From positions 62,001-126,000 of the forward strand of contig NZ_KI911559.1 of assembly GCF_000515255.1 (NCBI RefSeq): 64,000 bases of DNA, written 5' to 3'. How positions within the stretch are numbered: position 1 is the first letter of the stretch; every line of letters starts with the position of its first letter. The position numbers and the translations under genes were made by a program. This document shows, piece by piece, positions 874 through 47,771 of this stretch. The stretch is from Rhodovibrio salinarum DSM 9154. GTDB taxonomy: Bacteria; Pseudomonadota; Alphaproteobacteria; Kiloniellales; Rhodovibrionaceae. A model generated the notes under the pieces. That model was not told the origin of the DNA and did no database searches. It saw only the letters and a program-made list of their open reading frames with translations.

Positions 874-1622
874 CGCCCCGCCTGCCGGACCTTGGGGAGC
901 GGACACAGGCTGCCGCAGGTGTCCACCCCGGCCAGCCGGTAGCGCAGGCAACAGACCTTGCGCCGGCGCACCGGCGTACCGGCGTCGTCGAGATAGCGGA
1001 TGTGGCCGGCGAACGGGCTGGCATCCGCGGCCTCCGGCGCCTGCGGATCGATCCAGCGCCTGGCCGCCGCCAGCGCGGCGCGGTCGGCCTCCGGCCGGGC
1101 GGCGGCGACGCGGACCGCCCATTCGTAATAGTGCGCGGCGTTCCCCCAGAGCAGCCGCGGCGACACACGGCTCCAGCCCGCGAGCGCGGCCACCAGGGGA
1201 CCGAGGTGCCCCGCCATCAGACCTTCCGACAGCAGGTCGTCGGGGGTGCCGGGCGCGGTCGCGCCGGCGTACCGGATCGCCTCGGGTTCGCCGTCCGCGG
1301 ACAGCAGAATCTCCGTCTCCGCGAGGCGCATCGGAAGATGCTGGCCCGCGAGCACGACGAGGGCCACTGTGGGCGGGATCACCGTGCCGAAGTATTTGAG
1401 CGTCCAGAACGAGACCGCAGCCACGCGCGCGTCCGTCGGCCAGCGCGCGGCGAACGGTGTCACTACCCGGTCCAACATGGTGGGGGTCATCAGGTCCGCC
1501 GACTGCACGGCCGGGCGCGGATCGTCCGGGCCAGCCACCTTGCCTTGCAGGACCGCAAGGTCGCCGGTCAGCAGGGCCCCCAGATCCAGGCCCGGCGCGC
1601 GGGCTGTGCGTCCCACGCTCAT
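870..1622 (-). CDS. fhuF: Siderophore-iron reductase FhuF
   Basis: A 250-residue protein that in this family releases iron from imported ferric hydroxamate siderophores by reduction in the cytoplasm, using a [2Fe-2S] cluster. The C-terminus carries the cluster cysteines C224, C225, C236 and C240 in the order CC-X10-C-X3-C, followed by PLPKVRQAGR. The ATG at 1622 overlaps the stop of fhuB by four bases, which decides the start; the frame stays open further upstream but only inside fhuB. It is the third gene of a fhuD-fhuB-fhuF run. The last cysteine spacing is X3, whereas the Escherichia coli protein is usually described with X2. Confidence 0.85.
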   Translation of the reverse strand: MSVGRTARAPGLDLGALLTGDLAVLQGKVAGPDDPRPAVQSADLMTPTMLDRVVTPFAARWPTDARVAAVSFWTLKYFGTVIPPTVALVVLAGQHLPMRLAETEILLSADGEPEAIRYAGATAPGTPDDLLSEGLMAGHLGPLVAALAGWSRVSPRLLWGNAAHYYEWAVRVAAARPEADRAALAAARRWIDPQAPEAADASPFAGHIRYLDDAGTPVRRRKVCCLRYRLAGVDTCGSLCPLPKVRQAGR

Positions 1623-3571
1623 CCCCGGCGCGCCAAAAGCCACAGAAAATACGGCGCGCCGACGAAGGTCGCCAGAATCCCGGCAGGGATCTCGTAGGGG
1701 AAGTGCAGCGACCGGCCGAGCCAATCCGCCGCCACCATGATCGCCGCCCCGATCAGCATCGCGGCCAGAAGTTGGTGGCGGGCCCGCACGAACCCGGCCA
1801 TGCGCGCCATGTGCGGCGCCATCAGACCGACGAAGGTCAAGGGACCGGTCAGCAGGGTGGCACCAGCGGTCAGCACGGCCGAGATCGACAGCAGCAGCAG
1901 CCGGCTCCGGCCGACGCGTACGCCCAGGGCTTGGCTCGTCGTCGCGCCGAGCGGCAAGAGACCCAGCCACCGCACAGTCAACAGGCTCAGCCCCAGGCCG
2001 AGCGCGAGCAGCAGCGCCCCGGCCAGCGCCGGCAGCGCGCCGGCCCGGAAGGTCGGACCGGTGATCCAGACCAGGACGTAGCTGGCACGCGGATCGCCGC
2101 TGGCGACCACCAACGAGACCACGCTGGTGAACAGCGTTCCGAGCGCGACACCGCACAGCAGCACGTGATTCGGCGCGAAGCGCACCGACCGGGCCAACAG
2201 CAGCAACAGCGGAAACACCAGCAGCGCCCCCAAGGTGGCCGCGACGAGCTGCGTGACGGGCGACATCCCGGCCCCCAGGAACAGCGCGGCGATCACCCCG
2301 AGCGCGGCGCCGGAACTGACCCCCAACACCTCCGGGCTGGCCAGCGCATTGCCGGTCGTGCGCTGCACGATCGTCCCGGCGAGCGCCAGCATGCCGCCCG
2401 CCGTCAGGGAGGCCAGCACCCGCGGCCAGCGGCCGCCGATCAATTCCATGAGTGGAAGCTGCCCCACCTGAACGTGTTCGCTCAACGACAGGGCGACGAC
2501 GATGGTCAGTCCGACAGCTGTCAGCCCAAGCGCCAGACGGGGAATCCGGAGCCGTCGCGCCGCCGTGCCGACGAGCTGGTCGGCCGTGTCGGCGAGCGGC
2601 ATCGACTTGATCAAGACGAGCAGCAACGGCGCCCCCAACATCGCGGTCGCGATTCCGGTCGGTACCTGGGCGATCCAGCGGGCCGCGAGTTGCACGACCC
2701 CGTCGGCCAGCAGCAGCAGCGCCGCACCGAGCAGCGGGGCCCAGACGAGCCGCGCGCGGAACGTCCGCGCCCCCGCGACGCGCGCCAGATGCGGCGCGGC
2801 CAAGCCGATGAACCCGACCACGCCCACGGCGCTGGCAACCGCCGCAGCCAGAGCCGTCGCGACCGCGAGCGCCAACAGACGCACCCGCCGCAAGGGCACA
2901 CCCAGGCTGGTGGCGCTAGTGTCGTCGAGCCCGGCGACCGTCAGCGGCCGGAGCAGCGGCACCAGCAGCAGTATTCCCAACGCCAGACGCCAGGCCAGCG
3001 CCTGCGCCTGTCCCCAGTCGTTCTGCAGCAGCGAACCGCTGGACCAGATGAACACGCTCCGCAGGAACTCGTACTGGAAGATTCCGAGCAGCGCCGTCGC
3101 CGAACCGGCAACCAGGCTGATGATCAAGCCGGCCAGGATCAGCGTGATCGGCGACAGGCTGCGCCGCCAGGCGATCGCGAAAACCAGCGCCATCGCGCCC
3201 GCGGCCCCGCAGAACGCGGCCAGATCGCGGGTCACGCCCAGGAACAGGCCCGGGGTCACGAGCGCCCCGATCGTCACGCCAAGCTGCGCGCCGGAGAGGA
3301 TGCCAAGCGTCGAGGGCTCGGCCAGGGGATTGCGGAGCACCTGCTGGAACACCGTCCCCGACAGGCCGAGCGCCACGCCGACCAGCACCGCCACCACCGC
3401 GCGCGGCAGCAGGGCGTGATGCACGAAAACGTCCGCGAAGCGCGTCGGATCGGGGGCGACCGCCACGTCGGCCAGGCGGTCCAGCGCAACGTGCTGTGCC
3501 AATCCCGCCAGCAGCAGGCCCAGCGCGGGCACGACGAGGGCGAGCAGCAGTTGTGCCGGCGACAGCCTCAC
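1619..3571 (-). CDS. fhuB: Ferric-hydroxamate ABC importer permease FhuB (two fused halves)
   Basis: A 650-residue inner-membrane permease that moves ferric siderophore from FhuD into the cytoplasm. It consists of two homologous BtuC-like halves, about residues 1-325 and 326-650, each rich in hydrophobic helices and each carrying the APH cytoplasmic loop that contacts the ATPase (GLAAPHLAR in the first half, GLMAPHMAR in the second). This fused form is typical of FhuB. The start is a GTG at 3571 overlapping the fhuD stop by four bases; an in-frame upstream extension lies within fhuD and is rejected. No fhuC ATPase gene is visible in the window. Confidence 0.9.
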   Translation of the reverse strand: MRLSPAQLLLALVVPALGLLLAGLAQHVALDRLADVAVAPDPTRFADVFVHHALLPRAVVAVLVGVALGLSGTVFQQVLRNPLAEPSTLGILSGAQLGVTIGALVTPGLFLGVTRDLAAFCGAAGAMALVFAIAWRRSLSPITLILAGLIISLVAGSATALLGIFQYEFLRSVFIWSSGSLLQNDWGQAQALAWRLALGILLLVPLLRPLTVAGLDDTSATSLGVPLRRVRLLALAVATALAAAVASAVGVVGFIGLAAPHLARVAGARTFRARLVWAPLLGAALLLLADGVVQLAARWIAQVPTGIATAMLGAPLLLVLIKSMPLADTADQLVGTAARRLRIPRLALGLTAVGLTIVVALSLSEHVQVGQLPLMELIGGRWPRVLASLTAGGMLALAGTIVQRTTGNALASPEVLGVSSGAALGVIAALFLGAGMSPVTQLVAATLGALLVFPLLLLLARSVRFAPNHVLLCGVALGTLFTSVVSLVVASGDPRASYVLVWITGPTFRAGALPALAGALLLALGLGLSLLTVRWLGLLPLGATTSQALGVRVGRSRLLLLSISAVLTAGATLLTGPLTFVGLMAPHMARMAGFVRARHQLLAAMLIGAAIMVAADWLGRSLHFPYEIPAGILATFVGAPYFLWLLARRG

Positions 3572-21729: not shown

Positions 21730-23220
21730 CTAGCCCTCCCCTTCAAATGATGAGTGAATCACTTTTTCTTCCGTGAGCTCGCTGTGCGACAAGCCGGCGA
21801 CCACCCGGTTATTACGGAACACATAGACGTAGTCGCAGTTTTCCAGCTCTTCCATTTCCGTGGTGTACCAGATGAAGGTACGGCCGTTGCCGGCTTCCGA
21901 ACGGATCAGATCGTAGACCTCCAGCTTGGTGCCAAAGTCGACGCCGCGCATGGGATCGTCCATCAAGACGATCTCGGCGTCAGACCCGAAGGCGCGGGCG
22001 AACAGCGCTTTCTGCTGGTTGCCCCCGGACAACGAAAGGATGCCGTTGTCCACGCTCGGCGTGCGGATGCCCATGCGCGTGCGCCAAGACTCCGCCAGTT
22101 CGCGTTCCTTAGCGGTGCGGATCAGTGGACCGCGGCGCAATTGCCCCAGCGAGCGGATCGAGATGTTCTTCAGGATCGACCAGCGCGGGAAAATGCCGTC
22201 GCTCTGGCGGTCGCCGGCCACCAGCGCACAGCTCTGCATCACGCGCGTGTGCTTGGTCTTACCCCGCGCACGCTTGCCGGCCTGAAACACTTGCAACAGC
22301 AGGTCGGTTTGCCCGTGCCCGGCCAGCCCGGCCAAGCCAATGATCTCGCCCCGATGCGCCGTCACCGCCTGGTCGTCCTGTTGCGTGGGCGGGCGGGCTT
22401 CCACAGCCACCGGCGTATCCGCGCGGACATGCTCACTGCTTTGGCGCACGGCAGCACCTTGTTGGGCCTCCGCCACGTTGCCCATAGCGGCGACCAGTCC
22501 GTCGCGCGACATCTCGGCGGCAGGACTGTTCGCAACCACCTGGCCGTCCCGCATCACCGCGACACGGTCCGAGTAGCCGAGAATCTCGCCCAGCAAATGG
22601 GAAATCAGGACGCAACTCTTGCCGGCGTCGACGAAGGTCCGCACAAAATCCAGCAGTTGCCGTGCCGACACGGCATCGAGCGAGGAGGTCGGCTCGTCCA
22701 GGATGATCAGTTCCAGGCGCTCTTCATCCGTTTGTGTGAAGGCGCGGGCGATCTCGACCATCTGACGCTGCCCGATCGACAGGTCGCCGACCACGTCGTC
22801 GCCCTTTACGCCATGACCGGGAAAGATCTCGTCGAGCTTGTCGACGATCAGGCGGCTGGCGCGCCGACGCCAGCCCCACCCCTTGATTCCGGCATGCGCC
22901 ACGCGGGCGTTCTCCGCAACCGTCAGGTTGGGACACAGCGACAGTTCCTGGAAGATGCAGCGCACGCCGCGATCCTGCGCCGACGAAACCGCCCAGGATG
23001 CGGTCTCGTCGGCGCCGCGGATCGCGATCGCGCCACGGTCGGGAGCCAGCGTGCCGGCCAGCACGTGCATCAGGGTGGATTTGCCAGCGCCGTTGTGGCC
23101 CACCAGCCCGAGACACTCACCTGCCGCCACCGTCAGATCGACTTGTTGCAGCGCCCGTACAGCCCCGAAACTTTTGTCGATTCCACGTAGCTCGACGACA
23201 TCATTCGTCGGCTCGCGCAT
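21730..23220 (-). CDS. Sugar ABC transporter ATP-binding protein (RbsA/MglA type)
   Basis: A 496-residue protein with two ABC domains in tandem. The first has Walker [10 protein letters not shown] (about 42-50), the signature [15 protein letters not shown] and Walker [13 protein letters not shown]. The second has a degenerate Walker A (GLAGHGQT), as is normal in this family, and [15 protein letters not shown]. It powers uptake through the two permeases encoded just downstream. There are 38 bases between the binding-protein stop and its ATG. Confidence 0.93.
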
Positions 23221-27660: not shown

Positions 27661-29721
27661 TCATGCGGTGCGCTCACGCAGCGCCAGGATCGCGCCCAGT
27701 ACGACGAGGCCGTAGATGATGCTGCGCACCGCATCGGGCAGCATCGTGCCGGTCAGCGCCGTAGCCAACGCGGTCAGGACCAATGCACCGCCGAAAATGC
27801 CAAGATAATGGCCACGCCCGCCGGTGATCAGCGTGCCGCCGACCACCACCACCGCGATGGAGGGCAATAGATAAGAATCGCCCATACCGTTGAAGGCCTG
27901 CCCGTTGAACCCGGTCAGCAGCACGCCGGCCAATCCGGAACAGAAGCCGCTGAGCATGTAGACGCTCAACAGCGTCGCGCCCACGCCAACGCCGGACAGA
28001 CGCGCCACGCGCTGACTGTTGCCAACGGCGAAGACCCGCCTGCCGAAAGTCGTGCGCGTCAGCAGGAGTGTCGCGACGATCACGAAGGCGACCAGGGCAT
28101 AGACCACCGGGGCAAAGCCGAACAGGTTGCCGGTCATGAACTCCTGCAGCGCCGGTGGCGCCCACCCTTTCGGGGTGCCGTCGGTGTAGACCAGCGACAG
28201 ACCCTGAACGATGCCGTTCATCGCGAGCGTCACGACGATCGGGGACAGGCCGAGGAAAACGACGCCAAGCCCGTTGGCGAGGCCGATCAGCGTACCGACC
28301 GCCAGCACCAGCGGGATCGCCCAACTCGCCGCCACATCCGATCCCCCGGCCAGCCCGGTCAAGAGCACGCCGCAGAAGGTCAGCGTCCAGGGGATCGACA
28401 GGTCGAGGCCGCCGGTCAGCACAACCGTGCCCTGACCCAGACCGAGGATCGCCAGGAAGGTCGTCAGGACCAAAAGCGAGTTGATGTAGTTCAGGCTCCC
28501 GATCGGCGCACCGGCCAGGATCGCGGCGGCCGCCAGCACCAGCGCCAGCGCGACATAGGACGGCACGACGAACCGAAGGGTGGCCTTGTGCCGCGCGATC
28601 CAATCGTGCAGCGGCCGACCGCTCAGCCCGTCATCCGCCCGCACGGCCGGCAGCTTTCCGAACCCGGCATGGCGTGCCTGTTGCTGCGGCCGCGTGCCCT
28701 GCCGCAGCGCCCCGAGGCGCCGCCCGGCAAAGCGCAGGTAGCTGCTGAGCGCCGAACCCCGGCCAAGCGAACTGCCGAGCACGGCCAGGATCAGGATCGC
28801 CCCTTCGGCAATCGTGCTGTAGTAGGCCGACACGTTCAGCACCAGCAGGATGTTGACCGTCATCATCAGCGTGTAGGCCCCGAAAACGGTTCCCACACAG
28901 CCGCCGCGCCCACCGCCCAGGCGTGTGCCGCCCAGCACCACGGCCGCAAAGATCTGCAGCAGAAGCGGTTGGCCGATCAACGGATCGCCGGCACCGGTCT
29001 GGGCCGTGGTGAAAATGCCGGCGGCGGCATAGAAAAGACCGGCGACAAAGAACGCACGAAAGCGGCTGCGGGCGATCGAAATGCCGTTCGCTTGCGCCGC
29101 GTCCGGGTCGCTACCGACGGCATACAGGCCCGTGCCCAGCCGGCTGTTACGCAGCAGCAGCCACGCAGCGACCCCCAATGCCACCAGCACCACGGGCATG
29201 GGCAGCACACCAGGAATGGCGGAGCCGGACAACGCGGTCACGAACCCGTAGGGCACGCTGCCGCCCGGTTGGTCGAGCACGAGCAGGGTGATGCCCTGCA
29301 CGATGAACATCGTCGCCAGCGTGACCACGATCGCCGGCAGCCGCATGAAGCCGGCGAAAAAGCCGTTCACCGCGCCAACGGCACCGCCCGCCGCAAGGGC
29401 GATCACGCACCACAGCACCTGCGAGCCGAGGCTGTCGCCCATGTGCGTCGCGAGCAGGACGTTGACCAGTGAGATCACCGCCCCGGCCGACAGGTCGAAA
29501 CCGCCAACCAGGATCACGATCGTCTCACCGATGGCCGCCAACGCCAGGGTGGCGCCGCCAGAGGCGAGGAAGCTGAACTCGAAGTAGGACATCGGTCCAG
29601 CCGAGACCGCGCGTAGGACGACGAAGATCGTCAGGAACGCCAGGAAGGCAACGATGGTCGGTTGATTGCGCGCCCACAGGAAGCGCGCGTCATCAACAGG
29701 ACGGAAGGTGCGCGCGGCCAT
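27661..29721 (-). CDS. Fused double permease of a sugar ABC importer (RbsC-RbsC)
   Basis: A 686-residue membrane protein made of two complete RbsC-type permeases in one chain. The N-terminal half (about 1-330) has VGGFDLSAGAVISLVNVLL and GGTRLGGGRGGCVGTVFGA; the C-terminal half (about 385-686) has TGGLDLSIPWTLTFCGVLL and GGTLITGGRGHYLGIFGGA. A hydrophilic linker rich in R and Q (RPQQQARHAGFGKL) joins them. RbsC permeases are normally single and dimerise, so this would be a covalent dimer. Its ATG overlaps the ATPase stop by one base. Confidence 0.9.
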   Translation of the reverse strand: MAARTFRPVDDARFLWARNQPTIVAFLAFLTIFVVLRAVSAGPMSYFEFSFLASGGATLALAAIGETIVILVGGFDLSAGAVISLVNVLLATHMGDSLGSQVLWCVIALAAGGAVGAVNGFFAGFMRLPAIVVTLATMFIVQGITLLVLDQPGGSVPYGFVTALSGSAIPGVLPMPVVLVALGVAAWLLLRNSRLGTGLYAVGSDPDAAQANGISIARSRFRAFFVAGLFYAAAGIFTTAQTGAGDPLIGQPLLLQIFAAVVLGGTRLGGGRGGCVGTVFGAYTLMMTVNILLVLNVSAYYSTIAEGAILILAVLGSSLGRGSALSSYLRFAGRRLGALRQGTRPQQQARHAGFGKLPAVRADDGLSGRPLHDWIARHKATLRFVVPSYVALALVLAAAAILAGAPIGSLNYINSLLVLTTFLAILGLGQGTVVLTGGLDLSIPWTLTFCGVLLTGLAGGSDVAASWAIPLVLAVGTLIGLANGLGVVFLGLSPIVVTLAMNGIVQGLSLVYTDGTPKGWAPPALQEFMTGNLFGFAPVVYALVAFVIVATLLLTRTTFGRRVFAVGNSQRVARLSGVGVGATLLSVYMLSGFCSGLAGVLLTGFNGQAFNGMGDSYLLPSIAVVVVGGTLITGGRGHYLGIFGGALVLTALATALTGTMLPDAVRSIIYGLVVLGAILALRERTA

Positions 29722-34855: not shown

Positions 34856-37744
34856 TCAGCGGCAGTTGCTCGGCATCGCCTCCGGCCAAACACGGCGGTT
34901 ATCCGGGCCATACAGCACCCGCACGCCGCACCGCTGCGTGACCCGTGCGACCGGGCGCCCCGTGCGGTCGATCATCATGGCGTTGTAGCCCGTCGTGACG
35001 ACGGCCCGCCCGTCGCTGAACGCAGTGGCATTGCTATAGACCGGCGGGATCAGATACCGCCCCTTCCGGTCGATATATCCGTAGACGCCCTCGGCGCCGG
35101 CGGCGAACGCCAGCCCATCGTCGCTGAGCATCCCCAGATCGCGATAGCGGCCGATATCCAGCGGCGTGCCGGAGTTGTCGATCCAAACGGCCGGCTCGTC
35201 CCGATCCGCGCGCGACAACGCCACACCGTTGCGGAACGCGCCCGCCTGGCTCTCCAGGCGCAAGGCCGGCTCGCCTTGCGCGTCGGCATAGACCGTCTTG
35301 CCCGCCACATGATCCGAACCGATGAGCCAGTCCGAGTCCGCCGGCCAGGACCACCATGCGGTCTCCAGGTCGGCGACCCGTTCACCCTGTTGGTCGATAA
35401 TGTGCGGTCCTGTGTGATCGCGGAAGAGCGCGTGGCCGGAGTCTTCGTGGAAGGACGAGCCAACGCCCACGCGAAGGGGGAGCGCCCAGTCCCCGTCGGC
35501 AGTGAGATAGCCCGTGGCAGGACGCCGGGCGGTCCGCACCCAATTGCCGACACGCGCGAATTTCGTCTTCCGACCGTCAAGTTCGATCTCGCCACTCGGC
35601 GATAGCAGACGGTCCAGATGGTCATCATTGCAACCGCAATAGACCAGGATCCGCCCGTCCGGCCAGGGCGCGATCTGAAGCTGGGAGGTATAGGGCACGA
35701 TCATCTCACCCGAGGCATCCACGATCGCGCGCGGTTCCCGGTTAAAGAACGTCTCCGACGGCTTGTGTTGGACCGCCCACAGCTGACCGTTCAGGCGCTC
35801 GACGTAACCGTAGCGCGGTGACAGCGTCCAATCGCCGTTCGTATCGATGACGCCGACCTTGCCGTCGGCCGCGGTGGCAATCGCCTGCCCGTCGACGAAG
35901 TCCTCGATCGCCTGGAACTTGGCCTCGCCCCTGGGCTCACCGGCTTGGATATCGTACAGACGCAGGAGCGCATCGGCCGCCGCCGTTTTCTGGTAGGCCA
36001 GGAAGCCCGGCGCGACCACGTCCATGCCAAAAGCGGGGGGCAGATCGTAAAGCTTGCCCTCCCGGTCGAGAGCTTGAACCGCACCGTCCGCGTAGGTCAT
36101 CGCATAGCCGTGCTGGAACTTGGCGATACTGTTCCGCGTCGCGGCCAGCACGACCTTGCCGTGCCCGTCGATCATGCCGACCCCATCGGCCGTCTCCACG
36201 GCAAAGCGGGAGTCCCGCGTCTGGGTGGGATCTTCATCCAGCGGCGTCACCTTCTGCCACGCCTGATCGACCACGATACGGCCATCGGACAGCAAGAGGC
36301 CGGCGCCCTCACCGGCGCAATTACAATGGCCACGGGTCAGGATGGCGATCGGCACCGGACCCTCGTCTTCCGGGACTCGCTGGACGACCTCCAGGCCATA
36401 CTCCCCCACCTTGTCGCGGACCTCCGGCGTCAGCGTGGGCTGGAGGTCCGGTCCCAGCACATTAAGAAAATTGCGCTGCGCGTTCTTCATCCAATAGGAA
36501 CCGCCCCGGACCTCGATCGAGTCGATCTGCCCGACCCACTTGTGGGTTTTGCGCAAGAGCTTGTGACCGGCGCGCGATACGAGCCCGCCGATGCCCCCTT
36601 CGCCATCCCCGAGCACCAGCAGGCTGTTATCGAGGACCATCTCTGCGGTGAAGCCGTCTTCGAGGACCAGCGGTTCCTGTGCGCCAGGGGCCAAGACGCG
36701 GGGGCCATCCTCTGCCTGATACACGACGAAGGGACCGACCCGGTCGAGGTTGTAATAGGCATCCCGATCAACCTTGGTGAGCACCGTGCCATTGCGATCC
36801 AGGATCGCGAGCTGGCTGTCCCGGTCGACCACCAGCCAGAAATCGTCGGAAAGCCGCCGGACGTTACGGTAATCGTCCCCGACGACCGTGCCGTCGGGCT
36901 TCAACAGCGTCTGCCCGGCGGAACCGCGATTGGCGATCCACAAGCCACCTTCTTCGTTCGGCGCATCGATCGAGTCATAGAACGGCGGCACGACCAAGAT
37001 AGAGTCACCGTTGAGGACGCCGACCCCGTCATCGAAGCTGACGCGGAACAGGTTTTCCTCGGGATCGCCGAACCGGCCGAGCACTTCCATGTCGCCCGAA
37101 ACGACCAGTTGCCGGCCGTCCGGGGCGGTATGGACCGCATGGTAGGTCGTCCGGACCGGCGCCGGATCGCCCGCGCCAACCTCAATCGAGGCGACATTCT
37201 CGCCAAGATCGATGTCGAGGTCATGGTCATCGCGCCCGATCAACGTCCAGTGATAGTCGCGTTTGACCGGGGCGATGCCGATCTCGGCGAACGGCTTCGC
37301 ATCCTGGAATGCCGCGTCGACGACCCAGTTCCCCGAAGCGTCGATGAAGCCCCAGTCCGACCCGTCCTTGGCTGCGGCAAGCCCCTGCGCGAACGGCTTC
37401 ACGGCATCGAACTGCGGCGCCGCGACAAGCTTCCCATCACGGTCGATCAGGCCCCATCGATGATCCTTCAACCCCCGGGCCGCCGCGACGTCATCGATGT
37501 GCACGCCCAAAGCGGGCAAGCGCACCGCGGCCATGCCATTGCCAAGCGCTGCCATACAGTCGGTGCCGCGAGGGGTCGGCGTCTCCGAGGGATAAAGCGC
37601 TTCAAACGCGTGGGCGCGTCCAGAGGCCTTGCACGTCTGCGCCTGTGCCTGGGCAGACGGCACCGGCCAAAGCAGCGCACACGCCATGAGCGCGCCGCCG
37701 AGTTGTGCCACGAAGAGAGCGCGCATCGGGAAACCATCGCTCAT
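34856..37744 (-). CDS. Secreted WG-repeat protein, 962 residues
   Basis: A large protein with a signal peptide (about 1-34, ending QAQAQ) and many degenerate WG (KWG) repeats, for example HRWGLIDRDGKLVAAPQFD and SDWGFIDASGNWVVDAAF, spread to the C-terminus (VYGYIDRKGRYLIPPVYSN). WG repeats form beta-rich folds of largely unknown function, often exported. The C-terminal tail (CGVRVLYGPDNRRVWPEAMP, then SNC) resembles that of the protein encoded just upstream, so the two are paralogues. The ATG at 37744 overlaps the upstream stop by four bases. No enzyme motif was recognised. Confidence 0.8.
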   Translation of the reverse strand: MSDGFPMRALFVAQLGGALMACALLWPVPSAQAQAQTCKASGRAHAFEALYPSETPTPRGTDCMAALGNGMAAVRLPALGVHIDDVAAARGLKDHRWGLIDRDGKLVAAPQFDAVKPFAQGLAAAKDGSDWGFIDASGNWVVDAAFQDAKPFAEIGIAPVKRDYHWTLIGRDDHDLDIDLGENVASIEVGAGDPAPVRTTYHAVHTAPDGRQLVVSGDMEVLGRFGDPEENLFRVSFDDGVGVLNGDSILVVPPFYDSIDAPNEEGGLWIANRGSAGQTLLKPDGTVVGDDYRNVRRLSDDFWLVVDRDSQLAILDRNGTVLTKVDRDAYYNLDRVGPFVVYQAEDGPRVLAPGAQEPLVLEDGFTAEMVLDNSLLVLGDGEGGIGGLVSRAGHKLLRKTHKWVGQIDSIEVRGGSYWMKNAQRNFLNVLGPDLQPTLTPEVRDKVGEYGLEVVQRVPEDEGPVPIAILTRGHCNCAGEGAGLLLSDGRIVVDQAWQKVTPLDEDPTQTRDSRFAVETADGVGMIDGHGKVVLAATRNSIAKFQHGYAMTYADGAVQALDREGKLYDLPPAFGMDVVAPGFLAYQKTAAADALLRLYDIQAGEPRGEAKFQAIEDFVDGQAIATAADGKVGVIDTNGDWTLSPRYGYVERLNGQLWAVQHKPSETFFNREPRAIVDASGEMIVPYTSQLQIAPWPDGRILVYCGCNDDHLDRLLSPSGEIELDGRKTKFARVGNWVRTARRPATGYLTADGDWALPLRVGVGSSFHEDSGHALFRDHTGPHIIDQQGERVADLETAWWSWPADSDWLIGSDHVAGKTVYADAQGEPALRLESQAGAFRNGVALSRADRDEPAVWIDNSGTPLDIGRYRDLGMLSDDGLAFAAGAEGVYGYIDRKGRYLIPPVYSNATAFSDGRAVVTTGYNAMMIDRTGRPVARVTQRCGVRVLYGPDNRRVWPEAMPSNCR

Positions 37745-39243
37745 TGTTCACCCCCTTCCTGGGCCGGGCTGTCTTGAGATGCACCGTCCTCTGCCGCGTC
37801 CTCGCAAGCGGGCTGCTCGTCCGGCCAGGTGCGCTCTCCCTGCGCGTTCTCGACAACGATCTGCCCACAGTGCGTGCCGAAGTGGATCGTCATTTCACCC
37901 TGCTTGTTGATGAAGAACAGTTCACCGTCCTGATCGACCACCAAGGAGTGGCCTTCGCTAAAGGAGTTCACCGCGGAATAGTTGGCCGGAATGGCGAGCG
38001 CGCCCTCCCGGTCGATAAACCCGAACAACCGGCCAGAAACATCCGATCGCAGGAAAAAGGCCCGTCCTTCGGTCATGGGACCAAGAACGTCGAAGAACGG
38101 CCCGATGACTTTCTTCCCTTGGGCATCGAGGAAGCCCTCTTTGTGCGCCTCCGCGTCGCGGTACGGGACCAGTCCTTCGCTTCCCGTTTCATAGGTCAGC
38201 TTGTAGAGACCTTCGATACGCGCCAGTTCCTGCCCCTTAGGATCGATCAGTGCAGTTGCCCTCTCGTCCTCCAAGATCCGGGCATAGCGGTTCATTCCGG
38301 AAATCGGGAACGTCCTCTCGGCGTCCAGGTCCAGGATGCTGCCGTCGGCCTTGACGAAGATCGTCTCGTTGCCGTCATAAGCACGCGCCACCTGCTGCGG
38401 CAGGGTAAATTTTATTTGATCGAAGCGCGGCTGAAGGCGCCAGTTCCCCTGCGCATCGACCGCCCCCCTCCGCGAGCCGAAGGTCAGGACCGCCAAATCC
38501 CCCATAGGCGTGATATCCTCTAGCGGACTGGTGGTCTCAAAGAGCGTCTCCCCCGCGCGGTTGATGAGGCGCGCCCCGCCGCTGGCGGGTTGCACGAGGA
38601 TACGCCCGTGCTTCATCTCCTGCGGTCGCGCGCTCAAGCCGGTCGCGATCACCTCGCCCGTTTCCGGCGCGGCCAGCGTGTAAGAGCTTTCGCTGTCTTC
38701 CCGCTCGGTCAGCAGATAGAGGCCCGAGGCGAGGCGCTCGGGTTCTCGGTAGCTGGCATACGCGGGATCGATCACCCAATTGCCCGCGCGGTCGATGATG
38801 CCCCACACCTGCTCACTCGGCTTTGATCCTGGCATCTCGGCTGCTGCGAAACCGCCGGAGAATTCCGTCACATCGGTGAAGACAGGCTCGCTGATCGTCT
38901 TGCTGGCATCGACATCCCACAGGCCATAACGCGGTCCCCGGCGATCGGAAACACGCTGGCGGTAGGTTAGAATGCCGTCGGTTATCTCGCCGCGATTGCG
39001 GAAGACCGCACGCCGTACCGCATGCTCCGTGCCGTCATCGGCCACGATCAACCCGTCGTCGCTCCCCGGCTTCCGGGCAAGCGCGTAGCCGTCAGTAAAA
39101 GAGGATAAATCGGCATACTTCGGGTCGATGACCCAGTCGCCGTTAGCCCCGATCGCGCCATAAAGGCGCGCGTCGTTGCGCACGCGCACCGGCCCCTGTT
39201 TGACGTAGGACGCATAGACCTCGGCCCAGTCCTCCTGGGTCAC
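37741..39243 (-). CDS. WG-repeat protein without signal peptide, 500 residues
   Basis: WG-type repeats run throughout (RLYGAIGANGDWVIDPKYAD, QVWGIIDRAGNWVIDPAYAS), and the tail has the same CG...R-WP...C pattern as the 962-residue paralogue. There is no signal peptide. It starts with a GTG that overlaps the upstream stop by four bases. Residues from the GTG on (TQEDWAEVYASYVKQG) align with the middle of the paralogue (TPEVRDKVGEYGLEVVQ), so this looks like the C-terminal half of a split protein. The C-terminus is acidic and Q/E-rich. Confidence 0.78.
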   Translation of the reverse strand: MTQEDWAEVYASYVKQGPVRVRNDARLYGAIGANGDWVIDPKYADLSSFTDGYALARKPGSDDGLIVADDGTEHAVRRAVFRNRGEITDGILTYRQRVSDRRGPRYGLWDVDASKTISEPVFTDVTEFSGGFAAAEMPGSKPSEQVWGIIDRAGNWVIDPAYASYREPERLASGLYLLTEREDSESSYTLAAPETGEVIATGLSARPQEMKHGRILVQPASGGARLINRAGETLFETTSPLEDITPMGDLAVLTFGSRRGAVDAQGNWRLQPRFDQIKFTLPQQVARAYDGNETIFVKADGSILDLDAERTFPISGMNRYARILEDERATALIDPKGQELARIEGLYKLTYETGSEGLVPYRDAEAHKEGFLDAQGKKVIGPFFDVLGPMTEGRAFFLRSDVSGRLFGFIDREGALAIPANYSAVNSFSEGHSLVVDQDGELFFINKQGEMTIHFGTHCGQIVVENAQGERTWPDEQPACEDAAEDGASQDSPAQEGGEQ

Positions 39244-40499
39244 GATCGCGCCTCCCGGGATAAAATCGCCGGGGCGGCGTTCACGTCTTTCGGGCGCAAC
39301 TCCGCGAGCGGTAGTGTGGCCTCATTGGCTGCGGTGGCAGGCAAAGGCGTGACGTAATAATCCTCAAGGCGCGCCGTCGTCTCGTCGTCGAGCACCGCAG
39401 TTCCATCCGGACTAAAAGGCTCGACCGGCTGAGATTCTTTATCGTATATCCAGAGATAGTCGCCTTTTACGCGGCCAGAGTCGAAATCGGCGAAGGTTTT
39501 GGTCACGACCTCGCCTGCCGCGTTGATGATCACGACCCCCTCGTCGATCTGGAAGTAAGTGGGGAGCTCATCGCGGTTGATCTGGCGCGGTCTCTTACCA
39601 AGCGACACGAGCGTATTGCCGTCATTGCCCAGCAACAGCTTGGTGCGATCTTGTTGCCGGACATACCAGATGCCGGGTGCGACCAGCGAGATGGTCCGGA
39701 ACACAGGTTGCGTCAGCGCCTGCCCCTGGCGATCCACGAGCTGCCAACCGTCGTCGCGCTTAAGTGCAAAGGCCTCGCCATCGGTTTTCGGCAAGTACCG
39801 CGTGTGCAACGTTTCCGGGGCAACGATCCATGCGCCATCCGCGTCCAGCAGGCCCCACTGCCCGCGATAGCGGCTGTCCCGTATCAGGACGAACAAACCG
39901 CCCTCGACAGACGGCGCCGGCTCCACCCGCATCGTCTTGTCGGGCAGGGTGAGCACCGTCTCGGACGCCGCGTTCCAGACTTTGGGGACGACCGGCACTT
40001 CAATCGGCGTCAGCGAGAGTTCGCTCTGATTCCCCGGCTCAAGGTAACGCGCGCCAAGCGGAAAGCGCTTCACAACGGCCCCGGTCCGGTCGATCAGGCT
40101 GAATTCCTCCCCCTCTTCGACGACGGCAACACCGGCGGCATTGAAAGAATTGGCCGAATCGTAATGCGGTGAAATCACAAATGCGCCAGACGTATCGATG
40201 TAGCCCCACTTGCCGTCGAGCTTTACCTGAGCAAGCCCATTGGCAAAGGGGGCCGCCTTCTCGAAACGCGGCGCGATCGCCATCTGACCGTCATAGTCGA
40301 TATAGCCATAGACCGGCGCCTTATCTAACGACTCGACCGATCCAGTCGGCACAAGAGCCCGCCCGTCGTGAAACGTGCCGAAGCAACTGACAGGGTCCCG
40401 CCAATCGCAACTCCGCGGCCAATTCTGAGCTGCCAAGGCAGGCGAGGCGGCAAGAACCAACGCAAGACAAATGGCCATACGCAGCCGGAGGCAAGTCAT
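39240..40499 (-). CDS. Secreted WG-repeat protein, 419 residues
   Basis: A protein with a clear signal peptide (about 1-25, MTCLRLRMAICLALVLAASP, ending ALA) followed by WG repeats (PVYGYIDYDGQMAIAPRFEK, GKWGYIDTSGAFVISPHYD). The start at 40499 has an excellent ribosome site, AAGGAGAG. It matches the N-terminal half of the 962-residue paralogue, and with the next gene (500 residues) it adds up to about the same length. First gene of the three-gene WG operon; it faces a small secreted-protein gene across an AT-rich spacer. Confidence 0.8.
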   Translation of the reverse strand: MTCLRLRMAICLALVLAASPALAAQNWPRSCDWRDPVSCFGTFHDGRALVPTGSVESLDKAPVYGYIDYDGQMAIAPRFEKAAPFANGLAQVKLDGKWGYIDTSGAFVISPHYDSANSFNAAGVAVVEEGEEFSLIDRTGAVVKRFPLGARYLEPGNQSELSLTPIEVPVVPKVWNAASETVLTLPDKTMRVEPAPSVEGGLFVLIRDSRYRGQWGLLDADGAWIVAPETLHTRYLPKTDGEAFALKRDDGWQLVDRQGQALTQPVFRTISLVAPGIWYVRQQDRTKLLLGNDGNTLVSLGKRPRQINRDELPTYFQIDEGVVIINAAGEVVTKTFADFDSGRVKGDYLWIYDKESQPVEPFSPDGTAVLDDETTARLEDYYVTPLPATAANEATLPLAELRPKDVNAAPAILSREARS

Positions 40500-41040: not shown

Positions 41041-41649
41041 ATGAACCTGCGTACGGCTGTTGCCGCTGTGGCTATCCTCTGCATCTCACCCATGGCTGTA
41101 TCGGCTGACCAGCAACCTGACTGGGCGGACCCCAATCACACCGAAATCGACTACTCCGGATTTCGCTGGAGAATTGCGTCCGGCGGAGGCGAACACCCCA
41201 TCACCGGGTGGTGGGTCTACCGGGATAATACCGATGAGTACGATGGATTGATCCAGGTGATCACCGTCGAAAACGCCTCCTATTACGTCAACCATGGCGC
41301 CTATCACACCCTTATGGCGAACTGCTTCAACGGCACGATGATGCTCGCGCTGAACCCTGAAGAGACCAATTGGCAGGTCAACGAGAGTGGGCAGGTCGAT
41401 GTGCGCTTTTCGATCGACGGCGGCGAGAGGCATGCCGAAGCATGGCGAGCCACCTCGAATGGCAGCAAAGCGGTTCTGGAGAATGCAGAAGCCGATGAGC
41501 TGATGACGCGCTTCGAGGATGCCGATCAGGTGCATTTCGCGCTGAGCAATGCCGAGGGGAAAAATCTCGAGATCACCTTCGACATGGCGGGCGCCGCCAA
41601 AGCATTCGCCTATGTGCGCGAAAACTGCACCTCCGATTCCAGCCAATAA
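41041..41649 (+). CDS. Small secreted protein, VasI-like or unknown
   Basis: A 202-residue protein with a signal peptide (1-22, ending VSA) and two cysteines, C94 in MANCFNGT and C196 in VRENCTS, that could form a disulfide. The segment from about 115 to 196 (VDVRFSIDGGERHAEAWRA, ITFDMAGAAKAFAYVRENC) resembles type VI secretion-associated VasI-type proteins, but no secretion genes are nearby, so the match is weak. The ribosome site GAGGAAGT is close to the ATG. The function is unknown. Confidence 0.65.
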   Translation: MNLRTAVAAVAILCISPMAVSADQQPDWADPNHTEIDYSGFRWRIASGGGEHPITGWWVYRDNTDEYDGLIQVITVENASYYVNHGAYHTLMANCFNGTMMLALNPEETNWQVNESGQVDVRFSIDGGERHAEAWRATSNGSKAVLENAEADELMTRFEDADQVHFALSNAEGKNLEITFDMAGAAKAFAYVRENCTSDSSQ

Positions 41650-46556: not shown

Positions 46557-47771
46557 ATGCGCCAGACGTGGCGATGGTTCGGTCCGCGCGACCTGGTAAG
46601 CGTCGACGACATGCTCCAAGCAGGTGTCGAAGGCGCCGTCTCAGCCCTCCATCACATCCCCCCGGGTCAGGTCTGGGCGACCGAGGAAATCCGCCAGCGC
46701 CAACGGGAAATCGCCACGCGCCGCGACGGCAGTCCTTCCGGCTTGGCCTGGGATGTGGTGGAAAGCCTGCCGGTGTCTGAAGACATCAAGAAGCAGACGG
46801 GTGATTGGCGCACGCATCTCGAGAACTACAAGATCAGTTTGACGAACCTCGCGAACGCGGGGATCAAGACCATCTGCTACAACTTCATGCCGGTGTTGGA
46901 CTGGACGCGCACGGACCTTGCCTACAGGCTCGCGCACGGTGGCACCTGTATGCGCTTCGATGTCTTCGACTTCGCGGCATTCGACATCTTCATCCTGAAC
47001 CGACCGGGCGCCGCAACGGCCTTTCCGGAGGGTGTCTACGAGGAAGCGGAACGCCGCTTCCGCGGGATGAACGAGACGGAACGTCAGGCGCTCTCCGGCA
47101 ACGTGGTCTTTGGCCTTCCCGGCGCGGCGGAGCATTTCACGCTCGAGGATGTCCGCCGTCATCTTGCCGAATACGAAGCCATCGACGCCGACCAGTTGCG
47201 CACACATCTGGTCACCTTCCTGGAGGAGGTTGTGCCGCTCGCCGAACGTCTTGGCGTGCGGCTCTGCTGCCACCCGGATGATCCGCCGTTCCCGCTCTTG
47301 GGACTGCCACGGATCATGTCGACCGAGGGGGATTACGAACGGGTCATGCGCGCCGTCGACAGTCCCGCCAACGGCATCACGCTCTGCTCGGGGTCGCTGG
47401 GCGCCCGGGCGGACAACGACATTCCGGGCATGATGGAACGGCTCGGGGATCGGGTGCACTTCCTGCACATGCGCAATGTGAAGCGGGAAGACGACCAGAT
47501 GCCCGGCTCCTTCTACGAGGCCGAACATCTTGGCGGTGACACCGACATGGTCGCTTTCGTCGCCGCCGTCTTGAAGGAGGAGACACGGCGACGCGCGCAG
47601 GGTCGCGCCGACTGCTCGATCCCGTTCCGGCCCGATCACGGACAGGACATTCTGGACGACCTCAACCGCAAGGCCCAACCCGGCTATCCAGCGATCGGGC
47701 GCCTCAAGGGGCTCGCCGAACTGCGCGGTATCATGACCGCGCTCAGCACCGCATCGTCCGGGAGCGCCTGA
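46557..47771 (+). CDS. uxuA: D-mannonate dehydratase UxuA
   Basis: A 404-residue enzyme that dehydrates D-mannonate to 2-keto-3-deoxy-D-gluconate. Metal and active-site motifs are CCHPDDPPFPLLGLPR, ITLCSGSLG, VHFLHMRNVKRE and FRPDHGQDILDD. The ATG at 46557 is preferred for AGGGAG seven bases upstream; the frame opens 15 codons earlier without one. It is one base from the uxuB start, so both are cotranslated. Confidence 0.95.
   Translation: MRQTWRWFGPRDLVSVDDMLQAGVEGAVSALHHIPPGQVWATEEIRQRQREIATRRDGSPSGLAWDVVESLPVSEDIKKQTGDWRTHLENYKISLTNLANAGIKTICYNFMPVLDWTRTDLAYRLAHGGTCMRFDVFDFAAFDIFILNRPGAATAFPEGVYEEAERRFRGMNETERQALSGNVVFGLPGAAEHFTLEDVRRHLAEYEAIDADQLRTHLVTFLEEVVPLAERLGVRLCCHPDDPPFPLLGLPRIMSTEGDYERVMRAVDSPANGITLCSGSLGARADNDIPGMMERLGDRVHFLHMRNVKREDDQMPGSFYEAEHLGGDTDMVAFVAAVLKEETRRRAQGRADCSIPFRPDHGQDILDDLNRKAQPGYPAIGRLKGLAELRGIMTALSTASSGSA

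Follow-up and report, generated by a model that had tools for sequence, protein, structure and literature searches.

We have studied a minus-strand locus of WG-repeat genes within 64,000 nucleotides of the Rhodovibrio salinarum DSM 9154 genome (contig NZ_KI911559.1, positions 62,001 to 126,000), a stretch referred to here as the window. The locus contains three open reading frames (ORFs) of 419, 500 and 962 amino acids (aa), 1,881 residues when summed. Each matches the WG_beta_rep family PF14903 above the curated cut-off of 25.6 bits, applied to the whole-protein score (ORF1, 91.8 bits, E = 2.5e-26; ORF2, 110 bits, E = 5.2e-32; ORF3, 122 bits, E = 9e-36). ORF1 and ORF2 share a four-base overlap at 39240-39243, as do ORF2 and ORF3 further along. 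A previous interpretation of this DNA (the sequence-only reading) had described three consecutive WG-repeat ORFs with four-base overlaps and about 1,880 residues, and to this extent it was accurate. It also took them to be three genes encoding three subunits. We find it very probable that the locus is a two-gene cassette of exported WG-repeat proteins, A and B, in which A has been broken once, in mid-gene, by a change of frame. The features are as follows.

40499-39240, minus strand: ORF1, 419 aa; signal-peptide-like start and N-terminal cysteine pair C31, C39; assigned as the N-terminal half of A
39243-37741, minus strand: ORF2, 500 aa, GTG start; assigned to A as its C-terminal half; C-terminal cysteine pair C459, C480; no signal peptide of its own
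37744-34856, minus strand: ORF3, the intact gene B, 962 aa; signal-peptide-like start; cysteine pairs C38, C63 (N-terminal) and C939, C961 (C-terminal)
40499-37741, minus strand: the whole of gene A, frame-broken; orthologue of single-ORF WG proteins of 920-928 aa, from tblastn with the intact A of locus L195 and from six aligned orthologues
39246-39275, minus strand: frame-break zone inside A, where homology and codon usage switch frame with no sequence lost
39251-39256, minus strand: Shine-Dalgarno-like GGGAGG ahead of the ORF2 GTG, which could permit some restart
37741-37744, minus strand: four-base overlap between the A stop and the B start; an A/B overlap of 1 or 4 bases is kept in 8/8 intact pairs

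The start of ORF1 resembles that of ORF3, and the end of ORF2 resembles that of ORF3, which led us to suspect that the first two ORFs together make up a paralogue of ORF3, one half each. Global alignment of ORF1+ORF2 with ORF3 gave a score of 345, compared with −150 ± 23 (standard deviation) for 40 shuffled sequences and 69 when the order was swapped to ORF2+ORF1. A profile of B places ORF2 on positions 521-956. The same arrangement is seen on comparison with an intact A protein. In a tblastn search with that of L195, residues 12-423 matched 40469-39246 in frame -3 with 40% identity, and residues 422-924 matched 39252-37768 in frame -2 with 37% identity. The two blocks adjoin at ~39246-39252 with nothing missing between them, and when six enteric A proteins were aligned to ORF1+2 the junction was free of gaps. 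Of the 51 genes predicted in the window, 46 non-WG genes served to model codon usage, the three WG ORFs and two genes of low score having been left out. The model favoured the ORF1 frame to about 39266 and the ORF2 frame from about 39264-39252 onward, locating the switch at ~39255-39270. Judged by homology and coding bias, ORF1 makes up the N-terminal half of gene A and ORF2 the C-terminal half, and ORF3 is the ancient paralogue of A, namely B. The lack of a signal peptide on ORF2 is thereby accounted for. The best 12-residue mean hydropathy near the N-terminus, a crude measure and not a signal-peptide predictor, is 2.57 for ORF1, 1.94 for ORF3 and 0.53 for ORF2, in agreement with the earlier assignment of signal peptides to the first and third ORFs and not to the middle one.

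Is gene A found uninterrupted elsewhere? Genome contigs of 84,980 species were scanned with an alignment of WG regions, giving at least 590 stretches, at least 476 relatives and at least 79 loci that were kept. The best six of these loci (L079-L084; E <= 1e-50) belong to Rahnella laticis, Rouxiella aceris, Rahnella inusitata, Rahnella rivi, Rouxiella silvae and Ewingella americana. The comparison of layout covers these six, the other 73 listed loci scoring E = 6e-23 or weaker. In 6/6 an ORF of 920-927 aa has directly behind it a second ORF, about 945-1,006 aa long, and A and B of R. inusitata both score above the PF14903 cut-off. Two further pairs were found, in genomes G1013 (locus L196) and G1330 (locus L195), one of which is a relative of these enteric genera and the other a genome of the gammaproteobacterial class. 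Thus in 8/8 full-length pairs outside the window gene A is uninterrupted, forming one ORF of about 920-928 aa, and B comes directly after it. Taking the B start nearest to the end of A, the two genes overlap by 1 base in three pairs and by 4 bases in five. The layout of three ORFs occurs in 0/8 pairs, so that three subunits must be corrected to two genes. The sequence-only reading had held that absence of the triplet from relatives, with disrupted frames, would point to decay rather than to a conserved system. The triplet is indeed absent from the relatives, and what they hold is an intact A-B pair; the conserved system is therefore A-B, of which the window carries a copy whose A is broken.

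The enteric pairs L079-L084 share with the window the order A-B, the lengths, the overlap of 1 or 4 bases, the signal-peptide-like starts and four conserved cysteines. Identity is 30-33% between ORF1+2 and A, and 31-32% between ORF3 and B. They differ in that their A is uninterrupted, and in their neighbours, with M20 peptidase and extensin-like genes to one side and ASCH and C39-like genes to the other, none of which was seen beside the window cassette. The pair of G1330 is the closest found, with identities to the window of 39% (A) and 41% (B) and a 4-base overlap. Its A is again uninterrupted, at 928 aa from the chosen start, with the frame open further upstream. Lying at L195:2837-9156 in a genome of 67% G+C, this intact pair is the best reference for the family. 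The eight intact pairs define what may be expected of an A-B cassette. The window has A and B adjacent in that order, full-length homology of both, a 4-base A/B overlap, and hydrophobic N-termini with N- and C-terminal cysteine pairs on A and B, from which export is predicted. It does not have A as one uninterrupted ORF. The occurrence of A in two frames lowers its status as a working member, but not its descent from the A-B cassette.

In a phylogenetic tree the A proteins, including ORF1+2, lie apart from the B proteins, including ORF3; ORF1+2 groups with the A of L195 with a support of 0.995, and ORF3 with its B with a support of 1.00. A and B are about 20-26% identical to each other. The tree and the identities thus indicate that the A/B duplication predates the split of these lineages, and that A and B have been inherited together. 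The pair is thinly spread. Full-length matches to B were found in its own genome and one other among 398 sampled genomes of the phylum. Full-length pairs were found in 2/394 genomes of the order of Rahnella and in 2/350 of its class, the source of the query (G776) being included in both counts. There was no other full-length match in samples of 385 and 270 genomes of the window's class. Searching with B in the family (3 genomes), order (61) and class (385) of the window gave, beyond its own copy, short repeat matches only, and a search for relatives by exact peptides of B gave 0 confirmed among 18 stretches. None of the plasmid (10) and phage (2) records matching B covers 80% of it, coverage being <=30%. 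Such a scatter would fit either horizontal transfer or repeated loss. The G+C content of the cassette is 63.7%, compared with 65.0% for the window, and composition gives no hint of its origin.

We examined whether the overlap of ORF1 and ORF2 is itself informative by simulating the loss of a single base at 46,725 positions in the same 46 genes. A four-base stop-start overlap resulted at 22,206 positions (47.5%), so the ORF1/ORF2 overlap is no evidence of coupling. More generally, a four-base overlap of ORFs in a GC-rich genome should not be taken alone as such evidence. The GGGAGG lies 7 bases ahead of a GTG that overlaps the ORF1 stop. An overlap together with a Shine-Dalgarno-like match that equals or betters this one arose in 666 simulated breaks (1.4%). 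The ribosome-site match is thus mildly unusual, leaving room for some restart. Decay of A was assessed at columns that are invariant among the six enteric proteins. ORF1+2 retains 178/376 of these (ORF1 94/203, ORF2 84/173), and ORF3 retains 191/402 of those invariant in the enteric B proteins. The invariant cysteines are retained 4/4 in A and 4/4 in B. The frame break is the sole mark of decay in A, and a sequencing error, a very young mutation and a tolerated split would all look alike in this respect.

These explanations may now be weighed. That the three ORFs are independent genes arising by local tandem duplication, with no split at all, would account for the WG repeats present in each; it is virtually excluded, because ORF1 and ORF2 match consecutive, different halves of single A orthologues in frame-contiguous tblastn, and likewise of ORF3. 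If the break is an error of sequencing or assembly, the living organism would have an intact A and an ordinary working A-B pair. The chance that this is correct is somewhat below even. No further lesion is found across the ~919 codons of A, both halves retain their coding bias, A is as well conserved as the intact B, and the homology blocks meet with nothing missing. Against this, the genome is a single contig, and among 26 other window genes scanned against Pfam none is, by eye, seemingly split across neighbouring ORFs, which speaks against gross faults in the sequence; a single break in a single gene, moreover, cannot tell error from young mutation. We give similar credence, again short of an even chance, to a true and recent loss-of-function mutation in A, with the cassette starting to decay in this strain. 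The sequence does after all contain the break, the C-terminal half would have no export signal, and the rarity of the pair, missing from most sampled relatives, fits a dispensable cassette; but there is no second lesion, and B is intact and conserved. Were the break real in the cell, ORF1 would be exported as a truncated half, ORF2 would be at best cytoplasmic, and A would probably be non-functional.

It is improbable that the split is tolerated or even useful, ORF2 being restarted at its GTG to give separate chains for the two halves and three working proteins in all. The placement and rarity of the GGGAGG site speak for it, as does the retention of family-invariant residues by both halves. 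However, an overlap by itself would follow from 47% of breaks, A is split in 0/8 intact pairs elsewhere, and ORF2 lacks a signal peptide yet bears the C-terminal cysteines, a pair that requires an oxidising compartment. Less probable still is an extended version, whereby A in the lineage of the window is a split protein with halves made by stop-restart, and A+B is an undescribed exported assembly of two proteins, each a giant WG beta-array, inherited as a coupled cassette scattered across distant Pseudomonadota.

Does the pair of proteins suggest a role? The conservation of the A-B overlap makes translational coupling of A and B likely to be real, and the two would then be translated from one message, with translation of B beginning where that of A ends. 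The signal-peptide-like starts, together with a cysteine pair at each mature end, indicate that A and B are probably Sec-exported proteins of the periplasm or cell surface, with disulfides closing each chain. Each chain may fold as an all-beta array, possibly propeller-like, on the evidence of a weak model. This model of B, made with six orthologues, is all beta with a predicted local distance difference test score (pLDDT) of 70.6 and a predicted template modelling score of 0.41, so local confidence is usable and global confidence poor. Its best structural matches had Z = 10.6 (root-mean-square deviation (rmsd) 6.9, 275 residues aligned) and Z = 10.1 (rmsd 10.4, 271 aligned), the rmsd values being large. 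The proteins matched are largely beta-propellers (closed rings of four-stranded blades), which gives no more than a hint of propeller-like arrays in B. Foldseek template modelling scores, normalised to the query, were only 0.09-0.15. ORF2 folded alone gave an unusable model (pLDDT 39.8), and searching solved structures by sequence gave one match at chance level for B and none for ORF1.

Coupled translation, equal export and joint inheritance suggest, as the most likely role, a complex of A and B that binds something in the cell envelope, the two together forming a binding scaffold; we offer this tentatively. The sequence-only reading had envisaged a multi-subunit surface or periplasmic assembly of coupled, exported WG proteins. 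Its adjacent and probably coupled genes stand, as an intact pair elsewhere, and the envelope remains a plausible location; its three subunits do not. Several observations weigh against our own interpretation. The scaffold role is without support from a solved relative or a linked gene of known role, and the proximity of A to B is the only linkage seen to be common to the lineages; no enzyme or system accompanies the pair in both of the settings compared, enteric and window. Some of the pairs contain alternative in-frame B starts. The quality of the restart site, seldom equalled in the simulation, leaves room for a restart that has been kept. The codon score of ORF1 (0.34) is below those of ORF2 (0.43), ORF3 (0.46) and the other genes (0.51). 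Lastly, the break is known from one genome sequence, in a family sample of three genomes with no second of the species or genus. A large, probably coupled and exported WG pair, present intact in the cultivable genera Rahnella, Rouxiella and Ewingella, provides a handle on the role of a widespread, uncharacterised repeat family.

PF14903, annotated as 'WG repeat-containing protein', is an already known family, and the A-B pair is seemingly unstudied. The Pfam entry is a short repeat, above whose cut-off all three ORFs score, whereas the full-length architectures of A and B with two terminal cysteine pairs were seen just in the pairs listed here. A literature search that left most subscription papers outside its reach yielded little about WG repeats in bacteria and no description of the A-B pair. 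PF14903 is listed among families modelled without known structure (PMC8078820), a putative WG-repeat protein with a lipoprotein signal is mentioned in Pseudomonas aeruginosa (PMC8855297), and a KWG repeat gene is used as a marker (PMC5350142).

Other WG proteins are arranged differently. Two genomes of the window's order, G010 and G011, like the window encode exported WG-repeat proteins, but these are single proteins, about 540-720 aa long, with VWA and Big_5 proteins as neighbours, and not A-B pairs. The exported WG proteins there (L048:2133-9113 and L049:4374-8612 in G010; L050 and L051 in G011) lie beside exported VWA proteins with a DGS..MWGQ-like start. One such set includes a Big_5 protein; the arrangement as a whole is a possible functional lead for WG proteins (Pfam search of G010 only). 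In two genomes of one genus of the order (L052:6001-8142 in G041, and L053 in G040), a 525-aa WG protein adjoins a TspO/MBR gene (Pfam search of G041 only). A long ORF at L060:169-2856 (G243) was set aside, having by eye WG-like repeats before a methyltransferase-like part, and a radical-SAM-like ORF alongside.

In the 4.18 Mb genome there are 12 matches to PF14903, every one inside this cluster. The flanking genes confirm the sugar-catabolism modules previously placed on both sides: a LacI regulator, a gluconolactonase-like gene and sugar ABC genes on one, and a Zn-dehydrogenase, a TRAP transporter, UxuA and mannitol dehydrogenase on the other. Divergent from the cassette, at 41041-41649 on the plus strand, lies a gene for an exported protein of 202 aa with a weak resemblance to VasI (PF11319, E = 4e-4, below cut-off). 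We rejected a connection with type VI secretion, given the sub-threshold score, the lack of any NCBIfam match to this protein at E = 0.1, and the lack of a match to the sheath protein VipB (PF05943) in the genome, the control being found in E. coli. The VasI-like protein was matched in 3/59 genomes, its own included; the region of one of these (G060) was listed as ORFs, with no WG search made there. Elsewhere in the window are two fused double-permease genes, at 27661-29721 (BPD_transp_2 twice, 686 aa) and at 1619-3571 (FecCD twice, 650 aa).

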